Below the pieces are notes generated by a model. It saw nothing but the letters and a program-made list of their open reading frames with translations. It did no database searches and was not told the DNA's origin. The position numbers were made by a program, and so were the translations under genes. A stretch of 36,270 nt of DNA, taken from assembly GCA_947625335.1 (NCBI GenBank), contig CANQNY010000009.1:1-36270 (forward strand). Direction: 5' to 3'. The DNA comes from an uncultured Clostridia bacterium (lineage in GTDB: Bacteria > Bacillota > Clostridia > Oscillospirales > Ruminococcaceae). Below, piece by piece: positions 1 to 28,104 of the stretch (positions are counted from its first letter, which is position 1; each line of letters begins with the position of its first letter).

Positions 1-1848
1 TATGTAATGAAGAGGTCCGACCTCAAAAAGCCGAAAAAATATGATGTTTTCGTGAAAAACGTCGTGTGGGAATATTTCGGCGGGTCGGGGTGGGTAAGGC
101 TTTTCCCCGACGACAGGTTCGGCGATGTTTTCAACGGGAAAAACGACGGTTCTCCCGTGAAAATTACTTTCACCTGCCCGAACGACATTGCTCCCGTAAA
201 TCTCCCGTCGGGGCAATGCTACGCCATAAGGGCGCGCGCGGAGCTTGTGGAGAACTATCTTAAGCAGTACGGCGACTATATCGTGCCGCAGGTGTATATG
301 CCGACGTTTTCATACAGCTATAACGAACTTTTGCGGGTGTATACCGTGTTTACGGAAAATTGCCTTGAAGTTCGCGAGCATTCGCTTAAAAATAATTCGG
401 CGCAGGCGGCAAGGCTTTTGCCGGACGAGGGGAAAACCCTTGAATTCGCGTTTACAGCACCGCTTGACAGGGAGAATATCGGTATTCTTTTCGAGGTTGA
501 GGCAGGCTCGGACAGCAAGAGATACGAATGGGAATATCTTACTAAAAACGGCTGGCAGGCGCTTGACTGCCGCGACGGCACAAACGGTCTGTCGGAAACG
601 GGACTTTTGGTTTTCGGAGAAAACAGCGGGTTTGTTTACAAGGAAAGGTACGGTCATAAGGGGTACTGGATAAGGCTGCGGTTTGAGAAAGTGGAGTATT
701 TTCCGAACCAAGCCGCGGTGAGGGTGTTTTTGAACTGCGCGCGTGCGAGCAATACCGAACAACGCCCCGAAGAGCTTTTCACCGTCACCGACTCCGACAG
801 GGTCTGCCGACTTTCCCAGAGCGGAGTTTACAGCGCGAAAGTCTATGTTGACGAGCTGCCGTCGGCGTCTCCCGCCGAGGCGGACGCTATGGTGAAAAGC
901 AAGGGTTCAAGACCCGTTTACGACGAAAACGGCGACCTTGTATCGCTTTTCGTTTTGTGGAACGAGTACAGCGGCGGCGAAAAGGGACGTTCTTATGTTC
1001 TGGACAGGGACACTTCCTGCGTTATTTTCGGCGGGAACGGCGCGGGGTCTATGCCGCCCGCGTCTAATTCGGCGAATGTTTCCGTAAGCTATATCACTTC
1101 AAGCGGCGACAGGGGAAATCTCCCGAAAAATACCGATTTTACCGCAAACGAGAACGCAGGTCTTATTTCAAGGATATACAATCCGCTGAGAATGACAGGC
1201 GGCGCGGGCAAGGAAACGCTCGGAGGCACGCTTGAACGCTGCGCGGCAGAGCTTAGGCTAAACGCCCGCGCACGCTCGGCGGGCGACTTTGAGGCGGCAG
1301 TAAAAGCCGCCGACAGAAGTGTTCTTCGGGTAAAGGCGTTCGGCGGGAAAAACGCCCGCGGCGAAAGTTCGCCCGGCACGGTGACGATAGCCGTGCTTTT
1401 CAGAGAGCAGGAGGGTTTTCCCGAAAAAAGCGCGCGCCTTGAAAAGCTGCTGCGGGGCATGTGCAGTCCGCTTATGCGCGGAGGGACGCCCGAAATCGTA
1501 AAGCCGTATACCGTGACGTGCAGTATTTCCGTCACGGCGTTCGTGAGAAGTCCCGAGGCTGCGGGACGCGTTCGCACGCGGCTTTCCGAAAGATTTACGG
1601 AATTCTTCGACGCCGAAAACGGCAATATCGACAAAAAAGGCTGGGAAATAGGTCAGCTCCCCGACAAGCCGATGATTTACGGGTATCTGGTCGGTACGGA
1701 CGAAGTCGAGGGTCTGGAGGATTTCGAGCTTATAATGCTCGGTGAAAATAACGAGACGCTGAACGTTTCGGCTCTTGAAGTTCTCAAACGGAACGGAATG
1801 GCGCAAGCGGCGGCGGGAAACGCTTTTATCATGGTAAAGGTTATTTGA
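1..1848 (+). CDS. CIS baseplate J-type protein, 5' end outside the window
   Basis: Putative baseplate assembly protein of a contractile injection system (gp47/J-like, Afp11-type). The reading frame is open to the first base; the ATG at 7 has no visible ribosome site and is probably an internal methionine, so the protein is N-terminally truncated here (at least 613 residues). Two repeats of a WEYxxxxGW...YxIRxR pattern (about residues 22-75 and 173-226 counted from that ATG) are typical of the N-terminal half of the TIGR02243-like baseplate family. A FGGNGAGSMPPA motif near residue 340 corresponds to the family's FGxGxxGxxPP signature. The segment around residue 425 (ARSAGDFEAAVKAAD) matches the conserved J-protein core. 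The next gene follows after 25 nt with a strong ribosome site, so they are co-transcribed. In Afp/PVC particles two such proteins build the baseplate wedges. Function is assigned from family resemblance only. Confidence 0.8.
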   Translation, partial: YVMKRSDLKKPKKYDVFVKNVVWEYFGGSGWVRLFPDDRFGDVFNGKNDGSPVKITFTCPNDIAPVNLPSGQCYAIRARAELVENYLKQYGDYIVPQVYMPTFSYSYNELLRVYTVFTENCLEVREHSLKNNSAQAARLLPDEGKTLEFAFTAPLDRENIGILFEVEAGSDSKRYEWEYLTKNGWQALDCRDGTNGLSETGLLVFGENSGFVYKERYGHKGYWIRLRFEKVEYFPNQAAVRVFLNCARASNTEQRPEELFTVTDSDRVCRLSQSGVYSAKVYVDELPSASPAEADAMVKSKGSRPVYDENGDLVSLFVLWNEYSGGEKGRSYVLDRDTSCVIFGGNGAGSMPPASNSANVSVSYITSSGDRGNLPKNTDFTANENAGLISRIYNPLRMTGGAGKETLGGTLERCAAELRLNARARSAGDFEAAVKAADRSVLRVKAFGGKNARGESSPGTVTIAVLFREQEGFPEKSARLEKLLRGMCSPLMRGGTPEIVKPYTVTCSISVTAFVRSPEAAGRVRTRLSERFTEFFDAENGNIDKKGWEIGQLPDKPMIYGYLVGTDEVEGLEDFELIMLGENNETLNVSALEVLKRNGMAQAAAGNAFIMVKVI

Positions 1849-1873
1849 TTTTGATATTAAGGAGGCGGGGTAA

Positions 1874-3832
1874 ATGTTACAGTCGGAGGATTTAAGCCGC
1901 GACAGCTTTGAGGATATTTTGAAAACGGCAACGGCTGAGGCTGTAAAATTAAGTCCCGACTGGACCGACCACAACCCCTCCGACCCCGGTATCACCATAC
2001 TGGAGCTTATGTCGTGGCTTTCGGAGGTGCAGCGGTATCATCTGAATTCCGTAAACGGACGGCATTTTTCGAGATATTTAAAACTTCTGGGCTGCGAGCC
2101 GCTGCCGTCCGCTCCCGCAAAGACTTATTTAAGGCTCAGCGGCGGCGGTTTTGCTCCGCAGGGGAGCGTCTTTTACGCTGACAATATCCCGTTTGAAACG
2201 AAATACGGCTGCTCGGCGGCGGACAACGAGATACTCTCGCTCGGCACGGGCGAACGTATCGTGGCGAACAGGGAAGATATACTCTCGGACAGCCTGAGAA
2301 GTTTTGCGAATACGCTTGTTTTTCCGTTCGGAGAGAGTTTGCCGTACACGAAATTTCGGGTACGCCTTAAAAATCCGCTTCCTGCGAAAAGCGTAGTCGG
2401 GATATACTTCGGGATAAGGCTTTCCGAGCCGTGTACCGAAATAACAAACAGCGGCGACTGCATAGCGTCCATAGGCGTTTTCACGGGTAATTTTCCCGCA
2501 AAGGTACTTATAGACGAGACCATGGGATTTACCAAAAGCGGCGTAATAATGTTCCGCACGGGAGATGCCGCGGCAGATGAGCTTGTGTTTTCGGTACAAA
2601 GCGGAGAATTCGCGGCAATGCCCGTTGTTACGGCGGCTGTGATAAACGCTGTGCCCGCGGTGCAAAAGCGGACGCTTTCGCGCATACTGCGGTTTGACAA
2701 CGTTGAAAACGGCGTTATCCGAACGCCCGTAAAACCTGCGTTTTTGTTCGCTCTAAGCGATGAAGACGGAGATGAGAGCGAGAGGACGCTTTTAGAGGAT
2801 TTTACGGCAGACGGGAAAATGATAACCGTAAACAGCACGGCGAGGCGTTTTGAGGCGGTGGTGTGCAGCGAGGGCTTTGAGGAACGCTGCTGTTTAGGCG
2901 AGGCGCGCGGCGTGTGCAATTTCAGAATTAAGCCCGAAATCGGGAATATACTCGAAAATTCGGTTTCGGTTTACGTTTGCGAGGACGGTGTTTTCCGCAG
3001 GTGGGTGCAGCTCGGCGACTTTGACAGCGCGAATAAATACAGCCGCTGTTTTGTTTACGATAATGAAACCGAGGAGATAGTTTTCGGAAACGGCGAAAAG
3101 GGTATGCCGCCCGAGGGAAAAATTTACCTTTTCGGGTGCGTTGTATCGCTTAAAAACGGCGGGAACGTCAAGGCGGGCGCGGTAAGCTCCACGAATGAAA
3201 ACGGAATTTCCGCCGTGAATATACTTCCGTCGGAGGGCGGCGCAAAAAGGCAGTCTATTGACGAATGTTTCGACAGCGTGAGAGCCGCTGTAAATTCTCC
3301 GCGCTGCTTAGTTACTCTTGATGATTACGAAAACGCCGTGAGAACTACTCCCGGAATGCCTCACAAGCACATAAGGGCGTATTTAAGCGAACTTAAGGAA
3401 AACTGCGTTTGCATAGCGCTTGAGAATTTTATCGGAAATTCCGCTCCGAACAGCGGTCTTATGCGGAATTTAAAGCGCAGGATATTGCCCGCAGCGCAGC
3501 TTGGCACTAAGGTGGAATTTCCCGCCGTGAGATACGCTCCCGTGAATGTTTACATAAAGCTTAACACAAACATATATTCCGCCAACAGCAAGGAGCTTGC
3601 CGAAAAGGCTGTTCGGAGCTTTTTCGACAGCGACAGGGTGAATTTCGGCGTTACGATAAGCGTAAACGAGTTTTCGCGGTACGTCTGCGAGTCGCCGTGG
3701 GTAAGCGCGGTTTTAAGCGTGGATCTTTCGGTTTCCGCGAGCGACGGCGAAAGACTTCCGAGCGGCGATGTAAGACTGAAAAACGTCTGCCTGCCGACTG
3801 CGGGGAAAATTTCCGCAGTAGTTGAGCACTAA
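1874..3832 (+). CDS. CIS baseplate assembly protein, J/Afp12-like
   Basis: Second baseplate wedge protein, 652 residues. The N-terminus carries the diagnostic PDWTDHNPSDPGITILEL motif (residues 28-45) followed by W-LSEVQRYHLN, the hallmark of the putative baseplate assembly family (TIGR02243-like). FGNGEKGMPP near residue 412 is the same glycine/proline signature as in the preceding gene. The C-terminal third has the DDYENAVRTTPGMP core and a VNVYIKLN strand typical of J-like proteins. The start ATG is preceded by AAGGAGGCGGGG at about 1859-1868. No truncation or frameshift is visible. Expected to act in the cytoplasm during assembly and to form the plate that couples spike release to sheath contraction. 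Confidence 0.88.
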   Translation: MLQSEDLSRDSFEDILKTATAEAVKLSPDWTDHNPSDPGITILELMSWLSEVQRYHLNSVNGRHFSRYLKLLGCEPLPSAPAKTYLRLSGGGFAPQGSVFYADNIPFETKYGCSAADNEILSLGTGERIVANREDILSDSLRSFANTLVFPFGESLPYTKFRVRLKNPLPAKSVVGIYFGIRLSEPCTEITNSGDCIASIGVFTGNFPAKVLIDETMGFTKSGVIMFRTGDAAADELVFSVQSGEFAAMPVVTAAVINAVPAVQKRTLSRILRFDNVENGVIRTPVKPAFLFALSDEDGDESERTLLEDFTADGKMITVNSTARRFEAVVCSEGFEERCCLGEARGVCNFRIKPEIGNILENSVSVYVCEDGVFRRWVQLGDFDSANKYSRCFVYDNETEEIVFGNGEKGMPPEGKIYLFGCVVSLKNGGNVKAGAVSSTNENGISAVNILPSEGGAKRQSIDECFDSVRAAVNSPRCLVTLDDYENAVRTTPGMPHKHIRAYLSELKENCVCIALENFIGNSAPNSGLMRNLKRRILPAAQLGTKVEFPAVRYAPVNVYIKLNTNIYSANSKELAEKAVRSFFDSDRVNFGVTISVNEFSRYVCESPWVSAVLSVDLSVSASDGERLPSGDVRLKNVCLPTAGKISAVVEH

Positions 3833-3867
3833 ATTTTTACCGAAAATCGAAAGGGGTGAGAACAGGT

Positions 3868-4902
3868 TTGAGGAATGTGCCGAAATTTTTCATACTCAAT
3901 AAAAAAAGCGACTTTCTGCGCGGGGTCGGCGGCGAAATACAGGGCGACGCGCTAAAGCCGAACGGCTTGTATTTTTCGGGACTTTTCGACAGCGGCGAGC
4001 GGGAAACGCGCTGGTACAAGCTGGAAACCGAGTTCTCACTTCCCGCCAACTGCTCGGCGCAGGTATCGTTTTACAGCTCCGAGAGCGAGGAAATTGAGGC
4101 TGACGGGAAATTCGTCAATATCACGGAGTTTTTGCGCTCGCCCGAAACGCCCGAAGAAAAGCTGAGTACGCTGTCGCCGCTGCTGCGGTTTACAAGACCG
4201 CTTTCAAAAGAAATACTGCTGACCGAAATTCGGTCGAGGTACTTGTTTTTCGTGATACACGCCGTCTGTCCCGACGGGGAATGTCCCGAAATACGGCTTA
4301 TGAGGCTGATGTTCGACCCGTATATGTGGACGAATTTCCTGCCTGAGATGTACCGCGGCGACAATTCGTTTTTGGAGCGTTATCTCGCGATATTCCAGAG
4401 CCTTTTCGAGCATACCGAAACAAAAATCGACCGCGCCGCAGAATATTATTCTCAGGACTGCGCGGACGGGGATTTTTTAAGGTGGATATGCGGCTGTTTC
4501 GGGATAAAAACAGTCGGGTTGTGGAACGAGGAGCAGCTGAGGTATATTCTGAAAAACGCTCCGAGGATATTCGGGCGCGTGGGAACGCGGGAGGTACTCG
4601 CCGAGCTTTGCAGGCTGTATCTCGGGTGCAGTGCGGATATTGCCGAATATTATCAGTCCGAGGACGGCGGCTTTGTAAACCGCTATTCAATCCCGAAAGA
4701 GCGGCTTTTTACAAACCCTTACGAATTCGCGCTGATACTGCCGTGCGGTCCGATCTCGGAGGAGAAATACAACGGACTTGTGCGGATAGTCGACGACTTC
4801 AAACCCGCGTATATGACCGCGAATATTATAATTATCCCGCGCGAGGATACGCCCGGCGCAAACGGCGGATTGGTTCTCGGCGACGGTTTAACTCTCGTGT
4901 GA
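3868..4902 (+). CDS. CIS tail protein, phage gpI-like
   Basis: About 344 residues. The C-terminal half matches phage tail protein gpI/TIGR02242-like proteins: a FLPEMYRGDNSFLERYLAIF segment, a helical part with DGDFLRWICGCFGI, and FGRVGTREVL, which corresponds to the RGT signature of the family. The N-terminal 150 residues look like an added beta-rich domain. Start choice: AAAGGGGTGAG at 3850-3860 is best read as the ribosome site for the TTG at 3868; the GTG at 3856 lies inside that site. gpI-type proteins link J-like wedge proteins to the baseplate, which fits the gene order J, J, I seen here and in contractile phages. Confidence 0.8.
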   Translation: MRNVPKFFILNKKSDFLRGVGGEIQGDALKPNGLYFSGLFDSGERETRWYKLETEFSLPANCSAQVSFYSSESEEIEADGKFVNITEFLRSPETPEEKLSTLSPLLRFTRPLSKEILLTEIRSRYLFFVIHAVCPDGECPEIRLMRLMFDPYMWTNFLPEMYRGDNSFLERYLAIFQSLFEHTETKIDRAAEYYSQDCADGDFLRWICGCFGIKTVGLWNEEQLRYILKNAPRIFGRVGTREVLAELCRLYLGCSADIAEYYQSEDGGFVNRYSIPKERLFTNPYEFALILPCGPISEEKYNGLVRIVDDFKPAYMTANIIIIPREDTPGANGGLVLGDGLTLV

Positions 4903-4914
4903 CGGAGGCGTTTT

Positions 4915-6588
4915 ATGTACAATATAAAATTTTTCCCGTTTGAACGGAACAATTATTTCAAAGGCAAGGTAATGAGCGCAGAATGCTTTAAGTCGGAGCA
5001 GCTCTATTTAAACGACAAACGCCGGCTTATGAACCGTCTGGCGGGAGGATACGGGATAGTATGCGGACTGGATACCGTGGCTGTCGAGGACGACAAAATT
5101 TCTGTCGAGGCGGGAGTTGCCGTGGACGGTCTGGGACGGGAGATAGTCGTTCCCGCGCCGCATACGGCAAAGCTTTCCGAGCTTAAGGGCTACAACGCGA
5201 ACCTGCTGAGCGGAGAATACTATCTTTGCCTTGAATACGCCGAGAATTCCGATACAGAGGGCGTTGTTTCGGATATGACAGCGGAGGGGTATTCCCTCTA
5301 TCTTGCGGAAACGTCCGAAATACGCACACGGGGCGTGGGGTCGTATTATAAGCAGTCGGCTGTTCTTTTTGAGAACGAGGACGTCGAAATTCGGCTTTAT
5401 GTTCCGAGATTTATCAAATCTAACAGCAAATTCCCCGCCCAGCTGCGAATTATCCCGCGAAACACGGAATGCGTGATAAAAGCAAGGGGAACGGTAGATC
5501 TAAAATGCGTTCGCTGCGACGGAGCGGACAGCATAAGCGTGGATTTTGATTCCCGTTCGGAGAGGATAAAGGACGGGTACTATTCGCTGACGTATATTCC
5601 GGACGGTATGAATATCTCCAACGACACGGCGCAGTTTGTCGTTGGGGCGGGAGCTTTGAGCGTTTGGGTTTCCGAGCGGCAGTTTTCAAACGAAAAAGAA
5701 ATTGAACTGCGCTCCGAGATGATAAGCGGCGAGCCGAGTGAACAGGCGCGCGGCGAATACCGCACCGAGCTTTTAAGTTTTGTAAGCTCCGCGTCGCAGG
5801 TGGATGTTCTTTTAGCGCGGATAACGGTGGAAAATTTTGTTATCACAAAGCTGCGCGAGGCTCCGTCCGATTTCAGATTTCCGACTAACGCGGAGCTTGA
5901 GATAGAAAATCTCGCGCTGAAAGACAGAATACGGGTGTTGGAAAAAACAGCGCGCTCGGAAAATATAAAATCCGAGGGTGAAAAGCATTCCGACGCTCTG
6001 ACGGAGGTGTCCTCCGGGGAGGCTGTCATAGACCTCGGCATAGGCGGAAAGGCGGGAAAGAGGTTCTTTTCGGAGGAAATTTCCCACGGTCTGGGGCTGG
6101 GGAACGTTTTGGTTGTGGCGGGACTGCGCGACGAGAATGTTTCCGATTGCAGCTTTGTTTACGGTTCTTCGGAGATATTTGACGAGGGCGACAGCGGCGT
6201 TAAAGCCGAGGTTGCAGTTCGGGTAAATTCCGCAACGGGAACATTCAAAATAGGCATTCGCCTGCTTGAAGCGGCAGCCGCCGACAGTGCGGTAATACAT
6301 TGGACGGCGATAAAGCGCAGCGAGGTTCGCGCCGCCGCTGACAGAAGAATAATCATAGACAACGGCACAAAAACGCTCGGAGTGTTGGAATCGGCGTATT
6401 TTACGGTAAAATTCATCAATCTTCCGCCCTGCGGGATACGCTGGTCGGTGGTGAGCGAAAACGGCGGCAGCATCGACGACAACGGCTGTTATACCGCTCC
6501 GAACCACAGCGGCGTGTTCAAAATTCGAGCCGTCTGCGCCGACGACGAGAGCGTTTTCGCGGCGGCGTATATCGTCGTGAAACCGTAG
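4915..6588 (+). CDS. CIS-associated conserved protein with C-terminal Ig-like domain
   Basis: A 557-residue protein with no named function that I know. The N-terminus (FFPFERNNYFKGK, then YLNDKRRLMNRLAGGYGIVC and GVAVDGLGREI) resembles a conserved hypothetical family that recurs in CIS gene clusters. The middle is beta-rich and includes a short coiled-coil-like stretch near residues 325-350 (NAELEIENLALKDRIRVLEK). The last 80 residues look like a bacterial Ig-like domain: W-VVSENGGSIDDNGCYTAP followed by a G-FKIRA strand. The start ATG follows GGAGG by 6 nt, and it is 12 nt after the gpI-like gene. It could be a baseplate accessory or a fibre/receptor-contacting component; no classical fibre gene is seen elsewhere in the window. 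Confidence 0.6.
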   Translation: MYNIKFFPFERNNYFKGKVMSAECFKSEQLYLNDKRRLMNRLAGGYGIVCGLDTVAVEDDKISVEAGVAVDGLGREIVVPAPHTAKLSELKGYNANLLSGEYYLCLEYAENSDTEGVVSDMTAEGYSLYLAETSEIRTRGVGSYYKQSAVLFENEDVEIRLYVPRFIKSNSKFPAQLRIIPRNTECVIKARGTVDLKCVRCDGADSISVDFDSRSERIKDGYYSLTYIPDGMNISNDTAQFVVGAGALSVWVSERQFSNEKEIELRSEMISGEPSEQARGEYRTELLSFVSSASQVDVLLARITVENFVITKLREAPSDFRFPTNAELEIENLALKDRIRVLEKTARSENIKSEGEKHSDALTEVSSGEAVIDLGIGGKAGKRFFSEEISHGLGLGNVLVVAGLRDENVSDCSFVYGSSEIFDEGDSGVKAEVAVRVNSATGTFKIGIRLLEAAAADSAVIHWTAIKRSEVRAAADRRIIIDNGTKTLGVLESAYFTVKFINLPPCGIRWSVVSENGGSIDDNGCYTAPNHSGVFKIRAVCADDESVFAAAYIVVKP

Positions 6589-6600
6589 GCGCTGATAAAA

Positions 6601-6625
6601 GGTAAATTGGTAAGCAGGTAAATTG
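6601..6625 (+). repeat. Short direct repeat before the pseudokinase gene
   Basis: GGTAAATTG occurs at 6601-6609 and again at 6617-6625, filling most of the 39-nt gap. The second copy abuts the start region of the pseudokinase-like gene, whose ribosome site is weak. A tandem slip duplication or a translational control site are both possible. Confidence 0.4.
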
Positions 6626-6627
6626 AA

Positions 6628-7458
6628 ATGATTTTTGAGAGTGTTTCGGGAGTATACGAGGTCGTAAATCTCACGGCAAAGCAGCCGGATTTGCGCGTTT
6701 ACAGGTGCAGGCGCGGCGGCAGGGAATATGTTCTCTATCAGCTTATTGACGAGGAACTCAAGCGCTGTGCGTGCGAACGTTTTGAGAAGATAAGAAACAC
6801 GGATTTTGACGGGCTGGAGGAAATATTCACGTCCGGCGACGACCTTATAATAGCGTTTCGTTACCACGAGCTTGGCGAAACGGCGGCGTTTTATTCGGAC
6901 GGCAATTCGACCGAGGCAGGAAAAGTGCGTTTTTTCGGGGATATGCTTGCGGCGCTGTGTATTCACGCCGTACCGGAGGATATTGCGGCTAATCTTATCG
7001 AAAATGACAACGTGGGACTTACTCCCGACGGAAATCCCGAATGCAGATACGAACTTAAGTTCCTGACACAAGACGGCGGCAGAGCAAGCTTTTCCGAGGC
7101 GTTTGAAAAAAAGCTTAGGACGGCGTTTGAAAGCGTCGGACGCTCAAAGCGATCGGCGGCTGTGGAGGAATTGTGCGACGGGCTTATAAAAAATCCGCCC
7201 GCCGATATAATGGAGCTTTTCGGCAGGTACGAACAATGCGTCGAGCCGTTTTCCAAAATGGGTCTTGGGGAAACGAGAAAACAGCGCGCCAAGCGCATAG
7301 CCATGAAAGTTGTAAAGGTCGGGAAAACCGTTCTTGCGGCGGCGGTGCTGGGAATAGCGTTGTTCACGCTAGGGTTAGCGCTGTTTTCGGAGAAACCGTC
7401 CGAGGGCGGGATTTATCAGCAGATAGGCAGCGTGAAAATCGAAGAATATCATAGCTGA
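6628..7458 (+). CDS. Membrane-anchored pseudokinase-like protein
   Basis: A 276-residue protein. Residues about 1-215 have the strand/helix rhythm of a small kinase fold: an RVYRCRRGGREYVLYQLID segment in the N-lobe position and DNVGLTPDGNPECRYEL at 127-143, in the place of a catalytic loop plus DFG. The ATP-anchoring lysine, HRD aspartate and DFG aspartate are all missing, so catalysis is unlikely. A basic stretch (RKQRAKR, 217-223) precedes one hydrophobic segment at 233-253, which predicts a cytoplasmic N-terminal domain and a short outside tail. The ribosome site is weak (GCAGG about 9 nt upstream), unlike its neighbours. Kinase ancestry is inferred from pattern only and needs structure prediction. 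In the CIS operon it could be a membrane-bound docking or regulatory adaptor. Confidence 0.5.
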   Translation: MIFESVSGVYEVVNLTAKQPDLRVYRCRRGGREYVLYQLIDEELKRCACERFEKIRNTDFDGLEEIFTSGDDLIIAFRYHELGETAAFYSDGNSTEAGKVRFFGDMLAALCIHAVPEDIAANLIENDNVGLTPDGNPECRYELKFLTQDGGRASFSEAFEKKLRTAFESVGRSKRSAAVEELCDGLIKNPPADIMELFGRYEQCVEPFSKMGLGETRKQRAKRIAMKVVKVGKTVLAAAVLGIALFTLGLALFSEKPSEGGIYQQIGSVKIEEYHS

Positions 7459-7489
7459 TAAAATTTAAAAATCGCGGGGAGGTGAGTGC

Positions 7490-9205: not shown

Positions 9206-9221
9206 TTTGGAGCTGATTTGA

Positions 9222-9770: not shown

Positions 9771-9773
9771 GCT

Positions 9774-10460: not shown

Positions 10461-10481
10461 TTTGCGGGGAGAGTGCGTATT

Positions 10482-10868: not shown

Positions 10869-10908
10869 ACGCTTTTCCCCGAAATTCCGAAAAAAAGAGG
10901 TGTGACCC

Positions 10909-13491: not shown

Positions 13492-13518
13492 TTTCCGGCT
13501 GAAAGGAGGTGCGACCGA

Positions 13519-15933: not shown

Positions 15934-16459
15934 ATACAACCTGCAAAAAACGCCCTCCGCGTTTGAGTATATAGCCGAGGCGGAGCGGCTGATAAATATC
16001 GGCGAATACAACTCCGCTGCCGAAAAATGCTCGGAGGGCTTGAAAAAATACCCGAACGACGATGAGTTGTATCTCAAAAAAGCGCAGGCTTACCTGCTTG
16101 CGGGAGACGGGGAAAAGGCTCTCGGAACGGTAGAATTCGGTTACAAGCAGACAGGCAGCAGCGCGCTTTCACAATACCGCGAGGAGAATTTCCCCGTAAC
16201 GATTTCTTCTCCCGAATTTTCCGAGGTTGCGGGCGGCGGCGTGTTCGGCGCTCCCGAAAGCGACGGACAGTCAGACCCGGTTTCCGACCCGCAAAACAAG
16301 ACGGAATACACCAACCCCTACCCTGAGGAAGACGAAATAAACGTTGTTATTCCGTCCGTACAGCCTGCTCCGCCCGAAAACAGCGGGGATAATCAGAGCA
16401 GCGGGAACAGCGGGGACAATTCCGGGCAAAATTTAACAGAAAGTGAGAATGTTCAATGA
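15848..16459 (+). CDS. Membrane-anchored TPR protein
   Basis: A 203-residue protein from ATG 15848, with GGCAGGTGA upstream. The N-terminus is RTRRRRM followed by a hydrophobic segment at 8-28, giving a signal-anchor with the rest outside. Residues about 38-103 hold TPR-like helices (AERLINIGEYNSAAEKCSEG, then DDELYLKKAQAYLLAGDGEK). Residues 130-203 are low-complexity, rich in Pro, Asn, Ser, Gly and acidic residues, as in wall-spanning linkers. The start lies 86 nt inside the preceding gene; the basic-plus-hydrophobic N-terminus argues that this overlap is real. Its stop overlaps the next start (ATGA). A protein-interaction role at the cell surface is likely; the partner is unknown. Confidence 0.65.
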   Translation: MRTRRRRMAIILTAAAILLTAAIIFSLVEYNLQKTPSAFEYIAEAERLINIGEYNSAAEKCSEGLKKYPNDDELYLKKAQAYLLAGDGEKALGTVEFGYKQTGSSALSQYREENFPVTISSPEFSEVAGGGVFGAPESDGQSDPVSDPQNKTEYTNPYPEEDEINVVIPSVQPAPPENSGDNQSSGNSGDNSGQNLTESENVQ

Positions 16460-16878
16460 AAGAAAAAATCAAAGCGTACCTTGAAAGCAAAAATATCCGT
16501 TTTGTCGACAACGACGCCTTTTTAAGTTTCGGCGTGAACGGAAAGGACACGTTCTGGACAACGGCAATCAGAGCCGACGACAGCATCGTAAACATCTATT
16601 CGATTGTTCCGACTAAAGTCCCCGCCGAGAGATACGACTCGTTTATAAAGGCTGCAAACGCCCTGAACGTCAATATTCGCTACGGGAGCTTTGAGCTTGT
16701 CACCGAGGGCGAGGGCGCGGGCGAGGCGCGCTGCAGAACGCCGCTGTTTATTCCGAAAAGTCTTGACGGCGTTGCGTTTACGGAGCTTATGGACAGCGTT
16801 ATTATGTTTCACGAGGGTGTTATGGACGCGTTCGCAGCGGAAATGGTAAAGATTGCCTGCTCCGATAATGAGGAATAA
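16456..16878 (+). CDS. YbjN-like / secretion-chaperone-fold protein
   Basis: A 140-residue soluble protein. The pattern MKEKIKAYLESKNIRF, then strands around VNIYSIVPTKVP, and a C-terminal helix around MDSVIMFHEGVMDAFAAEM resembles the YbjN family, whose fold is related to type III secretion chaperones. There is no signal peptide. It is coupled to the TPR gene by a 4-nt ATGA overlap and sits 3 nt before the ATPase gene. By fold and position it could be a chaperone for the CIS ATPase or for cargo; this is inference, and the family match is from pattern alone. Confidence 0.55.
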   Translation: MKEKIKAYLESKNIRFVDNDAFLSFGVNGKDTFWTTAIRADDSIVNIYSIVPTKVPAERYDSFIKAANALNVNIRYGSFELVTEGEGAGEARCRTPLFIPKSLDGVAFTELMDSVIMFHEGVMDAFAAEMVKIACSDNEE

Positions 16879-16881
16879 GCC

Positions 16882-18948
16882 ATGAGCGGCGGGTACAACT
16901 CGGTTTTCGGAGAATACCGCGATTATTACGACGCGATGCGGATAATTCTCGGCGCGTATGTGGAGCGTCTTAAAGCTTCCGTTCCCGATGAAAGGCTTTA
17001 CAGCCGCGCTGCCCGCGCAGTACGTTCGGAGAGTGATTTTTACGGACTTCCGTTCGTTCTCGCGGGGGAGGAACACCGCAAATTTGAGGCTCTGCTGTCG
17101 GAAATTTCCGAAAAAACGAAAAATACCGAGATCTTCCTCCCGTTCGATTACGTTTGTTCGGCGTTTTCCATGAGCGAGGGGGAGAGGCTCGCGTTTGCGG
17201 CGTGTCTTTTGCGGTCGCTGCACTCGGAGCTTGCCGAGGTGTTCGCGTATATCAACAACGACATAAATATGACTTTCCCGACGCTTTCAAGCGTATGCAC
17301 GGTATTTTTGTCGGGCGACGAACGCGCCGCATACAATGCGCTTACAAGCTATATTCCCATGCTTTTCGAAGTAAAATCGGGTGAAACAGATCTTTCTTGT
17401 GTGGAACTAAAACCCCGCCGCCGCGTGCTGGATCTTCTGCTCGGAATGGAATTTCTGCACGATCTTCCGTATTCGCACACCTTTGCCGTAAACCAGCCTA
17501 TAGACGAGATATGCGGCAGGGAAAAGGAGCTTTCCGCCGCGCAGAAAGCGTTTTCGGACGAGGGGTGCAGCGTGCTGCTTATTGAGGGCGCAAGCGGTAT
17601 GGGAAAGCGGTTTTTTGTGAAACATTGCGGGATACTCTGCCGCAAAAATGTGATTTTTGCCGACGTTGACAAAATCCCCGAAAACGATATTACACTCGCT
17701 ATATCCGAGCTTGAACGCGAAACGATATTGCAGCGGGCGGTGTGCTGTTTTGTCGGAGTTACCGACAAAAATTCCGAAAAAGCAGAGCGTGCGGCGCGGG
17801 GACTTATTCCCTCGCAAAAGCTCATTTTTATGACAGCGGAAAGCCCCGTAAAGCTCGTAAGCCTTCCCGTATGCAGGCTGCGTTTGGGGGATCTGACGTT
17901 CGAGGAAAAACAGAAAATCTGGGACAGTTTTTCCGTTCCCGTGGAAAACCCCGAAACGGTCGCGAAACTTGCCGCGTCATACGATCTTCCGCCGTCCAAG
18001 ATAAAAAAAGTCGTTTCCGAATGTGAACGCACGGCGGGACTCAGGGGCTGCGATAAAATAACCGACGAGATTTTAAAGTCCGTCTGTCTTGCGGAATCGG
18101 AGGGAATTTTAAAGGACAAAGCCTCGCGCATACAAACGTCTTTCAGGCTTTGCGATCTTATCCTCCCGCAGAGCGAAAAATTGCAGATAATCGACGGGAT
18201 AAACTGCATAAGATACCGCCACACCGTCTACGACAGCTGGAAATTCAAGGAGAAAACAGGCACGGGCACGGGACTTTCAATGCTGTTTGAGGGTTCTCCC
18301 GGAACCGGCAAGACCATGGCGGCGTCGATAGTCGCAAACGAGCTTGGGCTTGCGCTTTTCAAGGTGGACTTGTCGAAAATGATGTCAAAATACGTCGGCG
18401 AGACCGAAAAAAGCCTTGACGAGGTTTTCAATATCGCCGAGCGCAGCAATGCGGTTCTTTTGTTTGACGAAACCGACGCTCTCTTCGGCAGGCGCAGCGA
18501 GATAAAGGACAGCCGCGACAAATACGCAAACGTCGAAACCTCGTTTTTGCTCCAGAAAATGGACGAATTCCGCGGGATAATCATTATGACCACCAACTTC
18601 AAGCAGAATATAGACGACGCTTTTATGCGCCGTATAACGTATATTATCCACTTTCCGCAGCCCAACGCCGAGTTTCGTTTGGAATTGTGGAAAAACGCGT
18701 TTCCGAGTGAGGCTCCCGCAGACAAGGGCATTGACTTCGGTTTTCTCGCGGAACGCTTTGAAATGACGGGAGCTATGATAAAAGGAGCAGCCGTGTCCGC
18801 GGCGTTTTCGGCGGCGGCGCGCGGCGGGAATATTTCTATGTCGGACGTGGTCCGCGCCGTGAGAAGGCAGTTTGCGAAATTCGGCAAGAATATCCCGCCC
18901 GCGGATTTTGGTCCTTACTCGTTGTATATAGACAATTCGGACATCTGA
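16882..18948 (+). CDS. CIS AAA+ ATPase (Afp15/Pvc15-like), two AAA-like modules
   Basis: A 688-residue cytoplasmic ATPase. The C-terminal AAA+ module is complete: Walker A EGSPGTGKT (about 470-478), Walker B LLFDETDALFG (about 524-534, with Thr where Ala is usual), sensor-like IIIMTTN, and an arginine pair in FMRRITY (about 583). It closely resembles the Afp15/Pvc15 ATPases that are conserved in CIS clusters and needed for particle assembly. Upstream, residues about 230-400 form a second module with a Walker A-like GASGMGKR but no clear Walker B acidic pair, so it is probably non-hydrolytic. The N-terminal 200 residues are helical. It starts 3 nt after the YbjN-like gene and is followed after 10 nt by the giant protein gene. 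Confidence 0.88.
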   Translation: MSGGYNSVFGEYRDYYDAMRIILGAYVERLKASVPDERLYSRAARAVRSESDFYGLPFVLAGEEHRKFEALLSEISEKTKNTEIFLPFDYVCSAFSMSEGERLAFAACLLRSLHSELAEVFAYINNDINMTFPTLSSVCTVFLSGDERAAYNALTSYIPMLFEVKSGETDLSCVELKPRRRVLDLLLGMEFLHDLPYSHTFAVNQPIDEICGREKELSAAQKAFSDEGCSVLLIEGASGMGKRFFVKHCGILCRKNVIFADVDKIPENDITLAISELERETILQRAVCCFVGVTDKNSEKAERAARGLIPSQKLIFMTAESPVKLVSLPVCRLRLGDLTFEEKQKIWDSFSVPVENPETVAKLAASYDLPPSKIKKVVSECERTAGLRGCDKITDEILKSVCLAESEGILKDKASRIQTSFRLCDLILPQSEKLQIIDGINCIRYRHTVYDSWKFKEKTGTGTGLSMLFEGSPGTGKTMAASIVANELGLALFKVDLSKMMSKYVGETEKSLDEVFNIAERSNAVLLFDETDALFGRRSEIKDSRDKYANVETSFLLQKMDEFRGIIIMTTNFKQNIDDAFMRRITYIIHFPQPNAEFRLELWKNAFPSEAPADKGIDFGFLAERFEMTGAMIKGAAVSAAFSAAARGGNISMSDVVRAVRRQFAKFGKNIPPADFGPYSLYIDNSDI

Positions 18949-18958
18949 GGTGACGTCT

Positions 18959-21900
18959 ATGGCATTTGAAAGATTGAAAAAAATTTTTGGGGTCGGAAAA
19001 TCTTCCGAAGAAAAAGCCCCCGCTTCGGCGCAGAATACGGGAAAACGGCAGCTGCCGCCCGACGACGACCCTACGAAAACGGTTGAGGAGGCGCGCGACT
19101 GGGCAAACGAGCGGAATAACGAGATAGGCAGACAGTCCGCGGGAGGAGCAAGAGGAGCAGGAGGAGCAGGGGCTTCGGGAGCTTCTGCGGGCGGGTCAAA
19201 CGCTGTTCCCGACGGCAATCTTACCATCGGAATGCTGACGTTCACGGTGAAGAACGAAAACGGCAAAGCCATTGCGACAGAGGGTACTGTGTCCGTTCTC
19301 GGAGCGGATGTCAAATGGACGGCGGTTGAGCCTATAGTTCTCCGGCGCGACAATAGTAACCAGATTCTAGCCTATGGCAAGGTGAAATTTCGGCACGAAA
19401 AGCTTGATTTCGGCGAAGAAGTTGTCATAGGCGTGAACAGCGGTATGTCGTCGATATCGGTAGACGGTCCCGACGGAATTCTTTACACCGAAAACGGCAT
19501 AACTCTCGCCACGGGAATAGGCGGCACGCTTTCGCTTGACGAGATTGTCCCGCGGAAGCTTGCTGTAAAGTCTCCGACAATTCCAAATTCCAACGACGAT
19601 CCGTTTGAGGGTACTCTTAAAATCACCTCCGAGGGCATTGTCGGGGAGGCTAAAAAAAACGCGCTCGGATTTGCCGACTCCGCGGCGGATATTATCAAAT
19701 CCGTGCAGAAAGAGTATGTCCTTTTCAAAGGCGAAAACGGCTTGAGTTATAAAATTGATATGTCCGACGCCGAGATAAATTATTCGATAGGGGAAATATT
19801 CTCCATTAAAGGCAAAACCCCTATAATCGGAGAAATCAAAAGCGACGGCAGCTATATTTATCATGTTTCAAACGGACAATATACCGTTTCGGCTTTCGGA
19901 ACGAATTTTTTAGCAAAGGATCTCCCCGCAAACTTTGACCTTACCTACGCAAACGGGAAGTTATCCACCGATAATTTCAATATACATTTTGATACTTTCG
20001 AAATAGGTCCGATGATTGCTGCAAACATCGCGGTAAATATAAATTTCACGGAAAAATCGCTGTCGCTGGATTCTGACAGCGTGACTTTTAAAAATATCCC
20101 GCTTACTATCGGTAAGACGACGATAACAGCAAACAGCACGGGATTTTCCATAGCGCAGGCAAGTGCCGAGCTTTCTTTGGGCGAAGGAGATGAAGCTCCG
20201 AAAGCCACGGCGAATATAACGGGCTTAAGTTATGCCGCGGAAAAACTTTCCGTTAATAATTTCAGCGCAAATGTTCCCGAAATAACTTTATCCGACAATT
20301 TCAAGCTTAACAGCGCCGATCTTTCCGGCAAGTTGTCGGAGTCGGGAATTGATCTTTCCGCAACGGTCGGAGTGGTTGTGGATTATAAAGGCAGCCCGTT
20401 TGCGGTATCTGCTCCCGATGGCGTAACGGCGTCGATTTCGTATCATAAAAGCGCAGGCGAGGGCGGCAACGCTCCTGCCAAGGGAAATACGACAGGGGTT
20501 GCGATAAATACCGACGATACGCTCGGAAAGGACATCTCCGTGTCGCTTAACGGCGCGCTTTCGGCAGCTCTTGTCATAGGTGAAAAAGAAATTGCGTCCG
20601 CCACGGTAACCGATTTTTCCTATGTGGGCAAGGTTATGACGTTTGGAGAACTCGAGCTTTCGGCAGATATTTCAAAATTATTCAAATCTATCGACGGAAC
20701 GGGTACTTTCCATGCGAAAAATCTTACCTACGGCAACGGCAATTTCCATTTTGATAACTTGTCCGTAACCCTCGCTAACTCGACTTTCAAAAAAAAGGAA
20801 CTGCCGAATATCACCCTCAATGTAAACAAGGACAGCGACGTATCGGAGGAAACTTCCGCCGCGGGCGATGCCGTAGTCCCGCTTGACGAGAACACCAACG
20901 CGGATCTTAAAACGCTCTCGTTTACGCTGAATATCGGTAAGTCGCCCTCTTTGGAAATGGCGGCAAGCAGTTTTTCGACAAATATCGGTCCGTTTGCGGT
21001 GGAAGCCGAAAACGCCGTTATAACGCTGGCGAGCGACAGATTTTCGAGTACGTTTGAAACACTCAGCGTATCAAACGATGATTTAGGGAAGCGTATCGCC
21101 GCTTTTTGCGGTATGGAGGGCGTGGCGTTTACACTGGGTGAATTCCGCTTTGGGTCGGACGGCTTTTCAGTCGGAGCGGTCGGCTTGCAGTTCAACGGCG
21201 ACGCAAAACTGTTCGGAAATGTTCATCTCATCGATCCCGCGGTATCGTTCAATCTTGCCGATAAAAGTCTCGGACTTGATTTCACGCTTTCATATGAAGG
21301 CGGCGACAGCTCGCTGCTGAAAAACTTCAGCGGCAATATGTCGCTTTCCGTCGGCGCGGAAAAAATTACGATAAACGAATTGTCGGACTTTGCGCTTGAT
21401 TTCGGAAGCTGGGGAAAAGGCGGGGTGGAATCCGCAAGCAAATCCGAAAGAGGGATTACGCTTACGGGAGTTACGCTCAAACACGCGAAGTCTGACGACC
21501 CGTCTCAGTTTGAGGGAATGAATCCCATTCTCGCGGCAATTCTCAGAGAAACTCCCGACCTCGCTGTACGCCTTGAAACGCTTACCATCACTAAAAACGG
21601 CATTGATCCCATAACAGCGGGAAATTTTACCATTGAGCAATTCACCAAGGATTTTACAATCACCGACGGCTTTACAGGAACAATCGACTACAACTCCCAA
21701 AGCGGGCTTAATATCGCTCTTAACGCAGAAAAAAGTTTCCCGAACGAACAAGACGAGGGCGAACTGTCCATGGGACGCATCGCCGAATTGGATCTTAATT
21801 TCCCGATAGTGCCGTGCTTGTCGGCAGGCGTGGATTTTCATGCCGACGCGGGATTTAAGGCTGCGATCGGAGCGAATGCAAATGTCGCAAAGGACGCCGC

Positions 21901-23962
21901 GGGAGTCACCACGTTCAGCGGTAAGGTTAATGCAGAAGCTCACGGCGCGGTTGGAGCGGGCGTCGGAGTAAAGCTTATGCTGGGGGTTAATAGTTTTAAC
22001 ACCTCTGTCGGGCTTTCGGGAAATGTTGTCGCACGAGGAGACGGTTCATTGAACGGCAAAATGCAGTTTACGCACGACCCGTCGCTGCCGTTTTTGCAGA
22101 GCTTTTCGCTTGACCGTAAACAGTCTTCTTTGGGTTACGCTCTGAACGCTGATCTTGCGTTCGAGCTGAATGCGACCGCAGGCGCAGAGGCGAAACTGCC
22201 CGCGTTTATAGCGAAAAAAGATTCGCTTGCCGTGTATCATTCGTTTAATCTTGCAACTGTAAATCTCGGCAATGTCAAGTTCAACGGAAATTTGAGCTAC
22301 AAGAAGAACGGTTGGGTATTTGAACACAGCGAAGAAAGTGATTTTCTCGGAAAATTCCATATCGACCATGTTGAGGAGAAGATAAATGAATTCGGCACAA
22401 CTTACGATTCTCTGAAAAGGGATATGGAGGCGGTGCAGTATATCTGCTCGAAGGTGACGGAGGGCAACGTCATAGGTCTTGACGCGCTTATGAACGACAA
22501 GACCATAACCGGCTTAGGTTCGCTGTATGAGAAGCTGAAAGATATACGCAAGCAGGGTATGGATAATTCCATGGAGGCTTACAAGCTTATGGCGGAGCTT
22601 AAAAAGCGGCTTGCGAACAAGGCTGACGAGGGCGAGAAAAACCTTAAGGAAGTCGAGGCTCTCGAAAATATCGAGCTGCAGTCGCAGCAGGCAAACGATG
22701 TTATCCTGGGCAGACAGCGCGCCGAAAAACAACCCGAAAGCGAGAGCGAAAACACCGAAGCCGAAGCGGAAAATTCCGTTGTTACCGAAAGCGGAGTTAC
22801 CGCGAAAGAATACGCGGATTTTATGAAACGTGTAAAAGCAATGCTTGACGACCCCAACGATCCCGCGATAAATAAGCTGTCGGAGCTTGACCCTGTTGCG
22901 GTTACAAATATGCTTAAGGTGTACAAACTAAAAGGCAGCCAAAGCTGGGCGAGCTTTCGCTTAAACGAAAGTCAGGGTTCGCTTACGGCGTTTCATAAAA
23001 TGCTGGTAAAAGACCCTCAAACCCCCGTTTCCAAGAGCAAAAGCAAAACCAAAACCAATGACGACAAGATTTTTACGGAGGCTCTCACGTCGCTTTCCTC
23101 GCTTCAGGATAACTGTTACAACAAGCTTGCGGAAGTTCAGATGGAAATTGACGATATAAACAAACAACTTGAAGACCTTGACAAAGATTCCACAACACGA
23201 AAGACGAAAATCGACAAGCAGAAGGAGGATTACAAGAAACTGCTTGAAGAAAAGCAAAAACAAAAGGAAGAGCTCTTAAGAACCGAGGTCGAGGGCGTGC
23301 AGATGTCGTCGAGCATAAAGGGCTTTACGGAGTTTTTGTCCGTCCAGGACAGTCACGTTCAGGGTATGATTTCAGCAAAGGCGGATCAGTACAAGTCCGT
23401 AGAAAACGTCGCTCTTAACGAAGATGTATTGACGGCGCGGAAAAAATGGCTTATAGATATTCTCGGCAATATGGCAAAGACCTATTTCAATACGGCGAAA
23501 AACTATTTAACTCCCGAATTCGAGGTAACCAACTGGGCGGGGTATGAAAAAACATTGAGAAACACGCTCGAGCAGGCTTCCAAACGCCGGAATGCTCTCG
23601 AAAGGGGAGAATGGTTCGAGGACGACCTGAAAAACTCTTACGGGTTCAGCTCGTTCAGCATAAAAGGCAGAGGATCTCAGTTCACAGGCAAAAAGAACGC
23701 CGCCTCGGAGTATACGCGCCTGAAAAACGCCTATAACAACATAAACGGCAGCATAACAAATTTCTTTGAGCTTCTTAAAGTGAATATGCAAACCACCGAA
23801 TCGCTTATGAAAGTGGATTTCAGCTCGTTCAAATCAGCCAAAGCTCTGAGCATTGAAAGCGAGAAGATAATCGACGCCGTAAACAAGACCGACGAAACCG
23901 AAAAGGCTATCCCGAAAAAACCTCCCGAGTCCGTCGAAGAGCTTATTAAACAAACGGCATAA
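18959..23962 (+). CDS. Giant beta-repeat/coiled-coil CIS-associated protein (candidate cargo or tape measure)
   Basis: A 1667-residue protein from ATG 18959, 6 nt after TGAGGTGA; the GTG at 18950 lies in that site. Residues 1-60 are polar and probably disordered; 60-82 form a Gly/Ala/Ser linker. From about 85 to 1120 runs a repetitive beta-rich region of short amphipathic strands with recurring patterns such as LSFTLNIG, FAVEAENAVITLAS and KSLGLDFTLSYEG. After this come long helices, including a strong coiled coil at about 1393-1444 (DDINKQLEDLDKD...KQKEDYKKLLEEKQKQKEEL). There is no TM segment or toxin motif I recognise. In Afp/PVC clusters toxins follow the ATPase gene, which favours cargo; length and helical end leave a tape-measure role open. 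It is the last gene before the terminator. Confidence 0.6.
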   Translation: MAFERLKKIFGVGKSSEEKAPASAQNTGKRQLPPDDDPTKTVEEARDWANERNNEIGRQSAGGARGAGGAGASGASAGGSNAVPDGNLTIGMLTFTVKNENGKAIATEGTVSVLGADVKWTAVEPIVLRRDNSNQILAYGKVKFRHEKLDFGEEVVIGVNSGMSSISVDGPDGILYTENGITLATGIGGTLSLDEIVPRKLAVKSPTIPNSNDDPFEGTLKITSEGIVGEAKKNALGFADSAADIIKSVQKEYVLFKGENGLSYKIDMSDAEINYSIGEIFSIKGKTPIIGEIKSDGSYIYHVSNGQYTVSAFGTNFLAKDLPANFDLTYANGKLSTDNFNIHFDTFEIGPMIAANIAVNINFTEKSLSLDSDSVTFKNIPLTIGKTTITANSTGFSIAQASAELSLGEGDEAPKATANITGLSYAAEKLSVNNFSANVPEITLSDNFKLNSADLSGKLSESGIDLSATVGVVVDYKGSPFAVSAPDGVTASISYHKSAGEGGNAPAKGNTTGVAINTDDTLGKDISVSLNGALSAALVIGEKEIASATVTDFSYVGKVMTFGELELSADISKLFKSIDGTGTFHAKNLTYGNGNFHFDNLSVTLANSTFKKKELPNITLNVNKDSDVSEETSAAGDAVVPLDENTNADLKTLSFTLNIGKSPSLEMAASSFSTNIGPFAVEAENAVITLASDRFSSTFETLSVSNDDLGKRIAAFCGMEGVAFTLGEFRFGSDGFSVGAVGLQFNGDAKLFGNVHLIDPAVSFNLADKSLGLDFTLSYEGGDSSLLKNFSGNMSLSVGAEKITINELSDFALDFGSWGKGGVESASKSERGITLTGVTLKHAKSDDPSQFEGMNPILAAILRETPDLAVRLETLTITKNGIDPITAGNFTIEQFTKDFTITDGFTGTIDYNSQSGLNIALNAEKSFPNEQDEGELSMGRIAELDLNFPIVPCLSAGVDFHADAGFKAAIGANANVAKDAAGVTTFSGKVNAEAHGAVGAGVGVKLMLGVNSFNTSVGLSGNVVARGDGSLNGKMQFTHDPSLPFLQSFSLDRKQSSLGYALNADLAFELNATAGAEAKLPAFIAKKDSLAVYHSFNLATVNLGNVKFNGNLSYKKNGWVFEHSEESDFLGKFHIDHVEEKINEFGTTYDSLKRDMEAVQYICSKVTEGNVIGLDALMNDKTITGLGSLYEKLKDIRKQGMDNSMEAYKLMAELKKRLANKADEGEKNLKEVEALENIELQSQQANDVILGRQRAEKQPESESENTEAEAENSVVTESGVTAKEYADFMKRVKAMLDDPNDPAINKLSELDPVAVTNMLKVYKLKGSQSWASFRLNESQGSLTAFHKMLVKDPQTPVSKSKSKTKTNDDKIFTEALTSLSSLQDNCYNKLAEVQMEIDDINKQLEDLDKDSTTRKTKIDKQKEDYKKLLEEKQKQKEELLRTEVEGVQMSSSIKGFTEFLSVQDSHVQGMISAKADQYKSVENVALNEDVLTARKKWLIDILGNMAKTYFNTAKNYLTPEFEVTNWAGYEKTLRNTLEQASKRRNALERGEWFEDDLKNSYGFSSFSIKGRGSQFTGKKNAASEYTRLKNAYNNINGSITNFFELLKVNMQTTESLMKVDFSSFKSAKALSIESEKIIDAVNKTDETEKAIPKKPPESVEELIKQTA

Positions 23963-28080: not shown

Positions 28081-28104
28081 TAAAGTAAAACATGTAAAAG
28101 CGTC

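Follow-up and report, generated by a model that had tools for sequence, protein, structure and literature searches.

The contractile injection systems (CISs) PVC and Afp are released particles. AlgoCIS is a released particle as well, and its fibres bind Alg12 (PMC8894135, PMC13314943). In Anabaena the thylakoid-anchored CIS (tCIS) is anchored by a transmembrane (TM) segment of Cis13 and an extension of Cis12 (PMC8894136), and in Streptomyces the membrane protein CisA is needed for the firing of a Gram-positive CIS; it is the one membrane protein known there, its direct partner being unproven in the available text of that report (PMC12237407). CIS loci of Bacillota, such as those of Paenibacillus jilunlii and Ruminiclostridium cellulolyticum, are already known (Geller et al. 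2021, PMC8213781), and the terms "transmembrane" and "membrane protein" have 0 occurrences in the main text of that paper. Here we describe a CIS locus from an uncultured Clostridia bacterium whose structural genes are interleaved with genes for a predicted pseudokinase (pkin), a MORN-repeat protein and HAMP/cyclase-like sensors, together referred to as the membrane module. On balance we favor the reading that this is a distinct CIS variant, found here almost only in Clostridia, which has acquired a membrane sensor and docking module of its own and is held at the membrane and gated there. A search of titles and abstracts of the open-access literature returned no description of a pseudokinase/MORN/HAMP module in a CIS.

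The locus lies in the window, the whole stretch of DNA analyzed, which is the entire 36270-base contig CANQNY010000009.1 (C9) of a 2.24-Mb genome in 178 contigs. Positions 1-23962 hold 15 genes, all on the + strand and either overlapping or separated by gaps of 1-40 nucleotides (nt), with the CIS baseplate, cap, tip and AAA genes interleaved with those for membrane proteins. The genes of the run and the stem that follows it are given below.

1-1848, +, J1, Cis11-like baseplate protein, C-terminal 615 residues, cut by the contig end (Baseplate_J 2.8e-9)
1874-3832, +, J2, second J-like baseplate protein (TIGR02243 1.3e-32, below cut-off; phrog_6 baseplate wedge 5.5e-13)
3856-4902, +, Cis12-like (gpI-like) baseplate protein, short form (Tail_P2_I 1e-5; CIS12_fam 1.6e-21, below cut-off)
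4915-6588, +, Cis13-like protein (CIS13_fam 3.6e-20, below cut-off)
6628-7458, +, predicted pseudokinase (pkin) with one C-terminal TM helix (kinase profile matches and structure model)
7490-9205, +, MORN-repeat protein with an N-terminal TM helix (80-98), repeats predicted outside (MORN 1.1e-29)
9222-9770, +, DUF4255/Pvc16_N cap protein, Cis16-like (PF14065 1.3e-16)
9774-10460, +, p228, conserved small CIS protein adjoining the cap gene (family found in 41 of 54 loci)
10473-10868, +, DUF4280 PAAR-like tip (PF14107 1.5e-35)
10909-13491, +, 4-TM sensor 1 (profile A3 and its matches; alone it reaches no Pfam family)
13519-15933, +, 4-TM sensor 2, paralogue of sensor 1 (second row of profile A3, matched at 1.2e-159)
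15839-16459, +, TPR protein (TPR206) with an N-terminal TM helix (TPR_19 3.7e-5, just below cut-off)
16456-16878, +, p140, small soluble protein with no family (Pfam, and BLAST against the compared loci)
16882-18948, +, AAA ATPase, Afp15-like by position (AAA 5.3e-29; phrog_10401 1.1e-54)
18950-23962, +, p1670, last gene of the run (no family, no relatives in the compared loci)
23981-24007, -, strong terminator-like stem of 11 pairs, 9 of them G-C, between p1670 and the next gene of opposite direction

By analogy, the CisA system, which the first-pass annotation did not cite, is the nearest precedent. Like the Streptomyces coelicolor CIS (CIS-Sc, subtype IId), as far as the available text describes it, the locus is Gram-positive and has Cis11/12/16-type genes; CIS-Sc is without conventional tail fibres, and here Pfam shows no fibre family among the genes scanned. 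CIS-Sc has a dedicated membrane protein required for firing, a role that the membrane proteins here would share. The predicted topology of the MORN protein (N-terminus inside, one TM helix, C-terminal domain outside) is that shown for CisA. CisA is a single bitopic protein whose N-terminus is disordered and whose outside domain is solute-binding-like, while the module comprises three other families, two of them predicted pseudoenzymes; moreover, Cis12 here is without the internal propeller, unlike that of CIS-Sc.

With tCIS the locus would share membrane anchoring via the Cis12/Cis13 part of the baseplate, as proposed from its genes. Unlike in Anabaena, Cis12 is short and separate membrane proteins follow; no TM segment was found in the window Cis13, and a hydrophobic segment occurs in 6 of 79 relatives. 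The sheath, tube, spike, gp25, J, Cis12 and cap parts are shared with AlgoCIS and PVC/Afp, and AlgoCIS has fibres and no membrane module in the available text of its description (PMC8894135, PMC13314943). If docking is right, a contractile tail would be fired from inside the cell as in the Type VI secretion system (T6SS). Unlike in the T6SS, no TssJLM-like Pfam family was found among the window proteins, the search not extending to other contigs.

The two halves of the CIS locus

The first-pass annotation had placed two J proteins, a gpI-like protein, a DUF4255 cap, a DUF4280 tip and an ATPase in one uninterrupted operon with five membrane-protein genes. This gene content is confirmed by the open reading frames (ORFs) and by Pfam. 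The continuity of the operon holds for the 15 closely spaced genes, and none of the terminator-like stems listed for 1-20000 falls in the intergenic gaps of the run; the left edge, however, is the contig end and not an operon start, and the sheath/tube half lies on another contig. As for the ATPase, the AAA assignment by Pfam and its position stand, but the Afp15 label goes beyond Pfam, which shows only AAA. A hydropathy scan called hydrophobic segments in five proteins (pkin 1, MORN 1, the sensors 4 and 4, TPR 1); this simple scan also flags residues 64-82 of the DUF4280 protein, which was left out of the membrane-protein count. Gene calls throughout were mechanical, TM calls were made by hydropathy alone, and many of the loci compared below are contigs of metagenome-assembled genomes (MAGs).

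The missing half could be located. The window starts at J1 profile positions 361-977 of 999 (E 9.4e-127), and an 11-kb contig, C73, ends in an open frame that corresponds to J1 profile positions 1-364, a complementary N-terminal piece of 364 residues. Because the two contigs hold complementary parts of one J gene, we infer that C73 and C9 adjoin in the genome. On C73 are encoded a sheath (Phage_sheath_1 8e-23, Phage_sheath_1C 1.1e-19), a tube (T4_gp19 2.7e-40) and a second tube-like protein (1.7e-11), a spike (Phage_base_V 8.1e-17) and gp25 (GPW_gp25 9.7e-24), as well as a hub, a 1278-residue protein and a CIS_tube-domain protein with a weak LysM match. Since C73 supplies the sheath/tube/hub/spike/gp25 half, the full set of core CIS parts is, by gene content, present in the genome; sheath, tube, spike, gp25, J proteins, gpI, DUF4255 cap, PAAR-like tip and AAA ATPase were all found. 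By profile score the window Cis12 and Cis13 are related to, yet outside, the curated equivalog families (CIS12_fam 76.7 bits versus a cut-off of 860; CIS13_fam 72.6 versus 370), and NCBIfam returned no pkin family and, for the sensors, no family that passed its cut-off.

Conservation of the membrane module

The Cis13 profile alone was used to scan genome_contigs (one genome per species), which returned 529 related stretches. The best 80 of these served as test loci (L047-L126), so that the locus counts hold for that lineage. Record titles assign 75 of the 80 to clostridial taxa (Oscillospiraceae, Lachnospiraceae, Ruminiclostridium, Heliorestis, Herbivorax, Syntrophomonadaceae, Peptococcaceae and the like), three to no class and two to Bacteroidales or Muribaculaceae, and many of the related stretches come from gut samples by their titles. 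The two latter loci, L061 and L077, resemble CIS loci of Lachnospiraceae and represent either mislabelled MAGs or transfer. The module profiles were built from 11 DUF4255-selected genomes of the order, the divergent G058 being excluded, and 2 of the 80 test loci are from genomes also used for profile building.

Among the loci with enough sequence after cis13, pkin was present in 72 of 78, and in 70 of the 78 it was directly next to cis13. A MORN protein with a TM helix was found in 61 of 62 loci with enough sequence and a HAMP/cyclase-like sensor in 51 of 54. The gene following pkin encodes the MORN protein in 61 loci and a sensor in 10, while DUF4255 was found in 48 of 54 loci and AAA in 30 of 54, partly since the locus sequence ends.

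Genomes without DUF4255 were compared as well. Of 245 genomes from the order, 12 carry DUF4255; strong pkin matches (E<1e-9) occurred in 10 of these 12 and strong sensor matches (E<1e-40) in 11, versus 0 of the 233 negative genomes in both cases, with the strict cut-offs set after the gaps had been seen (pkin 1.9e-10 vs 1.5e-6; sensor 1.8e-41 vs 5e-20). At E<=1e-3 the sensor profile matches 239 of 245 genomes, HAMP being widespread, and the pkin profile 22 of 245, the weaker 12 being partial matches in frames of 573-958 codons. Profiles A2 and A3 include the genomes of the window, L047 (G097) and L108 (G067); with these three removed, the counts are 7 of 9 (pkin) and 8 of 9 (sensor) DUF4255-positive genomes versus 0 of 233. 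The loci are mutually related, and Fisher values for the co-occurrence overstate independence.

All nine genes are present in 32 loci. There the pairwise distances of J1 correlate with those of pkin at 0.97, of MORN at 0.96 and of the sensor at 0.87, values reached by 0 of 2000 permutations, and pairs among J1, J2, cis12 and cis13 correlate at 0.97-0.99. The lower value for the sensor fits its variable architecture across loci, which is 4-TM, 2-TM (about 565 residues) or two split genes. These comparisons of genes show that the module is kept beside the genes for baseplate, cap and tip and has diverged in parallel with these. The first-pass annotation had taken the membrane genes and the CIS for one unit, a claim that absence of those genes from related CIS loci would have refuted. 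All three families were instead found together in 49 of 54 loci, and synteny in the 80 loci, co-occurrence and distance correlation uphold the unit. Its set of five membrane genes is retained in part: the pkin, MORN and sensor families recur, the two 4-TM proteins being paralogues, but TPR206 has no BLAST relative (E<=1e-3) in the compared loci, and p140 and p1670 likewise have no relatives there.

The module does not extend to all CISs of the phylum. Among 398 genomes of the phylum, DUF4255 occurs in 15, and pkin (E<=1e-8) was found in 7 of these and in 1 of the 383 others, G599, which has two weak partial matches in a 20-kb stretch without CIS profile matches. Four CIS loci read beyond cis13 (G622, G429, G340 and G554) contain none of the three module families; in these loci the genes for the AAA ATPase and the cap lie upstream of those for the J proteins. 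G390, DUF4255-positive and without pkin, has the sensor and MORN proteins; in G546, G551 and G410 the contig with DUF4255 (39, 32 and 10 kb, respectively) shows no match to J, Cis12 or Cis13, and these three genomes were left out of the judgement. That the module belongs to every CIS of the phylum is rejected by the four module-free loci, and because these loci of the same phylum lack the set, the module is, on gene content, a lineage trait and not general to Gram-positive CISs.

Possession of pkin goes with the form of Cis12. Residues 9-327 of the window protein align to positions 5-336 of 382 of the short-Cis12 profile, and it is without the internal beta-propeller. Cis12 length was surveyed in the 89 loci where cis12 is uncut and followed by 3 kb or more of sequence. 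A short Cis12 was found in 84, of which 75 have pkin within 8 kb, and a long Cis12 in 5, none with pkin. G622 and G429 add two further long Cis12 (720, 711), again with no pkin, and three of the four module-free loci have a long Cis12 with the probable internal beta-propeller. Against this pattern, G554 has a 244-residue Cis12 and no pkin. As for the 9 short-Cis12 loci first scored as lacking pkin, G105 has it by another search (it was missed by the gene caller), in G079 and G218 it follows another cis13 of the locus, and in G193 it is on another contig, leaving L051, L052, L053, G124 and G554 without it. The long form has about 280-330 additional residues near its start, and this insert is probably a propeller, with weak NHL matches in L112 (8.3e-5), L113 (0.095) and L119 (0.022). 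L112 (Peptococcaceae BICA1-7) and G390 each have a long Cis12, a sensor and a MORN gene on the other strand and no pkin, and may be evolutionary intermediates.

Predicted folds of the module proteins, and neighboring genes

The pkin family profile matched protein kinases (PAK1 1.8e-4 as the best, the bacterial kinase 4eqm 2.6e-4), and a structure model with a predicted local distance difference test score (pLDDT) of 85.6 retrieved kinases in a Foldseek search of the PDB (prob 1.00, E 6.4e-7, TM-scores about 0.5). At the columns of the HRD Asp and the DFG Asp, Asp is present in 0 of 36 members, and at the columns beside them in 4 of 36 and 3 of 36; the catalytic columns were placed by hand. The protein thus apparently has a kinase fold without catalytic residues. 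A helix was called in 67 of 73 pkin ORFs, and since the fold precedes it with a positive flank on the fold side in 57 of the 67, the fold is predicted to face inside. A LysM match was seen in 4 of 36 members (L047, L048, L050 and L062, by reading of the alignment), after the TM helix; such a tail is a possible direct tie from the cell wall to the baseplate, and fits an outside tail that touches the wall.

The window MORN protein has 571 residues, with the repeats following the N-terminal helix. By net charge, the N-terminus of the family is inside in 63 of 74 members, so that the repeats would be outside. For the sensors, net charge puts the C-terminus inside in 23 of 25. Profile matches give sensor 1 a beta-propeller-like outside domain, a second outside domain, a HAMP region and a dead class III cyclase fold inside. 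HAMP is matched in 24 of 26 members and a Pfam cyclase in 3 of 26; the family profile matches class III adenylate cyclases (2w01, 7.3e-15). Over its second outside domain and HAMP it matches chemoreceptors (1.1e-6), and over its first outside domain the beta-propeller protein 3hxj (5.6e-7). At the metal-binding Asp pair of class III cyclases, both positions are acidic in 0 of 67 rows and exactly one is Asp in 5 of 67, in an alignment that includes fragments or misaligned rows. The cyclase fold is thus apparently without catalytic residues as well. The first-pass guesses of a pseudokinase and of cyclase-like sensors have therefore both held up, the former by kinase profile and fold matches with the catalytic Asp absent, the latter by HAMP and class III cyclase profile matches.

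The first outside domain of the sensor was also compared with the Cis12 insert, giving an HHalign probability of 94%, versus 0.1-2.3% when the same sensor domain was set against five controls, namely J1, cis13, MORN, p228 and the second outside domain of the sensor itself. Both regions look propeller-like, and we do not claim transfer of a propeller between sensor and Cis12, as any two NHL-type propellers may match in this way. In Heliorestis (L055:16971-21490), two large proteins with N-terminal helices are encoded between the MORN and cap genes, the first of these matching an outer-membrane-efflux (TolC-like) family (1e-6) and the other Cu_amine_oxidN1 (1.7e-12). Relatives occur in L056, L062, G079, G218 and G465, and we interpret these proteins as extra outside parts of one sub-branch.

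The last gene of the run encodes p1670, which has no family in Pfam, NCBIfam or PADLOC and no eCIS_core domain by Pfam. It consists, judged by eye, of a long beta-rich part and then a coiled-coil-like part, and is a candidate cargo. In the Intestinimonas locus (G097), another candidate cargo of 892 residues, the first 417 of them at L030:17749-18999, is encoded two genes after AAA and has an eCIS_core domain (1.2e-29) and a weak collagen match. No eCIS_core match was obtained in the window's own genome, where control searches were equally silent. Omp85 gave no match in this 93% complete genome, with controls ringing in 7 of 14, in line with a single-membrane envelope. A different sheath (Phage_sheath_1 2.1e-30, with domain II and Gp18 domains) is encoded on the 9055-base contig C88 (L017) and probably belongs to a separate phage-tail locus, a prophage or tailocin, apart from the CIS.

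Beyond the run, the window contains at 26074-31433 a helicase-like gene (HmaA 7.1e-9, DrmD 4.7e-6, Helicase_C 0.0008), followed by one for a 1090-residue protein without Pfam or PADLOC family, which resembles a GHKL-type ATPase; the two are a possible defence pair beside the CIS. At the right contig end (31512-36270) is an RnfC-like gene, followed by genes that are presumably the rest of an ordinary rnf run.

Proposed docking and firing, and competing explanations

From the arrangement of these genes we propose, as did the first-pass annotation, docking at the membrane and firing on a surface signal, in the following way. After assembly in the cytoplasm the particle would be brought to, or kept at, the inner side of the cell membrane with its baseplate leading; the most likely contact is the pseudokinase, encoded directly after cis13. 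Facing outwards, the sensor and the MORN rod would read the state of the cell surface or cell wall. Because both cytoplasm-facing output domains appear to be dead enzyme folds, the signal would be relayed by contacts and conformational changes of proteins and not by phosphate or cyclic nucleotide. It would then trip the baseplate, whereupon the sheath would contract and drive the tube out through the producer's own membrane, with either producer death, as in Streptomyces, or cargo delivery to a neighbor as the outcome. Docking is suggested by two considerations: membrane contact precedes firing in the AlgoCIS, tCIS and CisA systems, as far as their available descriptions go, and in this lineage Cis12 is trimmed and the pseudokinase gene follows cis13. 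Pfam detected no tail-fibre or lysis family in the genes of the window and C73 or in the scanned ORFs of G097, which also counts for this reading, fibre domain profiles not having been used.

It is conceivable, if unlikely, that the CIS is released to the outside, the module acting as a checkpoint for release or lysis or as a shield of the producer that does not touch the baseplate. Release is the fate of PVC and Afp as well as of AlgoCIS, and the G097 locus holds the eCIS_core-domain protein described above. Fibre domains, moreover, occur in extracellular CISs (eCISs) of Bacillota in the available text of a 2026 survey, which put fibre-less loci aside as perhaps intracellular (PMC12923769). 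The module, however, lies among the structural genes of the run and diverges along with those of the baseplate, same-phylum CIS loci without it show that it is not a general need, and the same Pfam scans that returned no fibre or lysis family speak against release.

A special form of the favored docked and gated reading is a monoderm counterpart of the T6SS, docked, firing through the wall into a touching neighbor and reused, with the AAA ATPase recycling the sheath. We regard it as rather improbable. The module and the AAA ATPase do share one gene run, but the same AAA profile matches the ATPases of module-free CIS loci (E 2e-197 to 1e-206), the window proteins gave no TssJLM-like Pfam family, and reuse is pure inference.

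We give little credence to the membrane proteins being ordinary signal transducers that control CIS expression or assembly. HAMP with a cyclase fold is an architecture typical of signaling proteins, but both possible enzymatic outputs look dead, and no separate DNA-binding regulator was found among the window genes of the run (Pfam E<=0.05), the winged-helix match inside the AAA protein (1.1e-5) being below cut-off. Finally, an unrelated signaling cluster beside a CIS by chance, to which the lack of relatives of TPR206, p140 and p1670 might point, is next to negligible given the conservation across 80 loci and the co-occurrence in 10 and 11 of 12 versus 0 of 233 genomes; synteny and co-occurrence reject it for pkin, MORN and sensor, TPR206 not being covered.

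Several observations weigh against a docked and gated CIS. Docking, interaction and firing are deduced from genes, and the distance correlation, calculated without an unlinked control gene, speaks for co-inheritance and not contact. No TM helix was called in 6 of 73 pkin ORFs, including L078, L104 and L108 at 245-249 residues, so the pseudokinase, as predicted, is not always an anchor, even in the window's own family (L108). Nor does the module always occur as a whole: one of the three families is missing in 5 of 54 loci, and L112 and G390 have MORN and sensor but no pkin. With a poor structure model (pLDDT 56.6), the sensor folds rest on profile matches. The available text on the CISs of Roseiflexus and Deinococcota describes them as unattached in the cytoplasm, and Roseiflexus as having no close homologue of cisA (PMC12998442), so not every intracellular CIS has a membrane partner. 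The fibre domains of Bacillota eCISs count here as well.

More tentatively, a plasma-membrane-docked, signal-gated Clostridia syringe with a pseudoenzyme-relay trigger, an outside MORN rod and a stepwise origin may be a further CIS mode, beside the T6SS, released eCISs, thylakoid-anchored CISs and CisA-type cytoplasmic CISs. Its relay would have two members, a sensor that faces outwards and ends in a dead cyclase, and a dead kinase located at the baseplate. In such an origin, sensor and MORN would have been gained first, as in L112 and G390 with their long Cis12, and the internal propeller of Cis12 would have been lost later, the pseudokinase taking its place at the baseplate. The parts are of known kinds; their combination is new so far as the literature search shows.

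The locus bears on how an intracellular CIS finds its docking site and its moment of firing. Here a candidate trigger with outside, membrane and inside parts is genetically linked to the CIS, in a lineage found in 529 stretches by one Cis13 pattern, and the question becomes testable by single-gene deletions in cultured commensals; Intestinimonas butyriciproducens An565 (L047) and Sporofaciens musculi WCA-9-b2 (L091) are two such strains that carry the set. If the proposal is true, a dead kinase and a dead cyclase would act as mechanical relays in bacteria.

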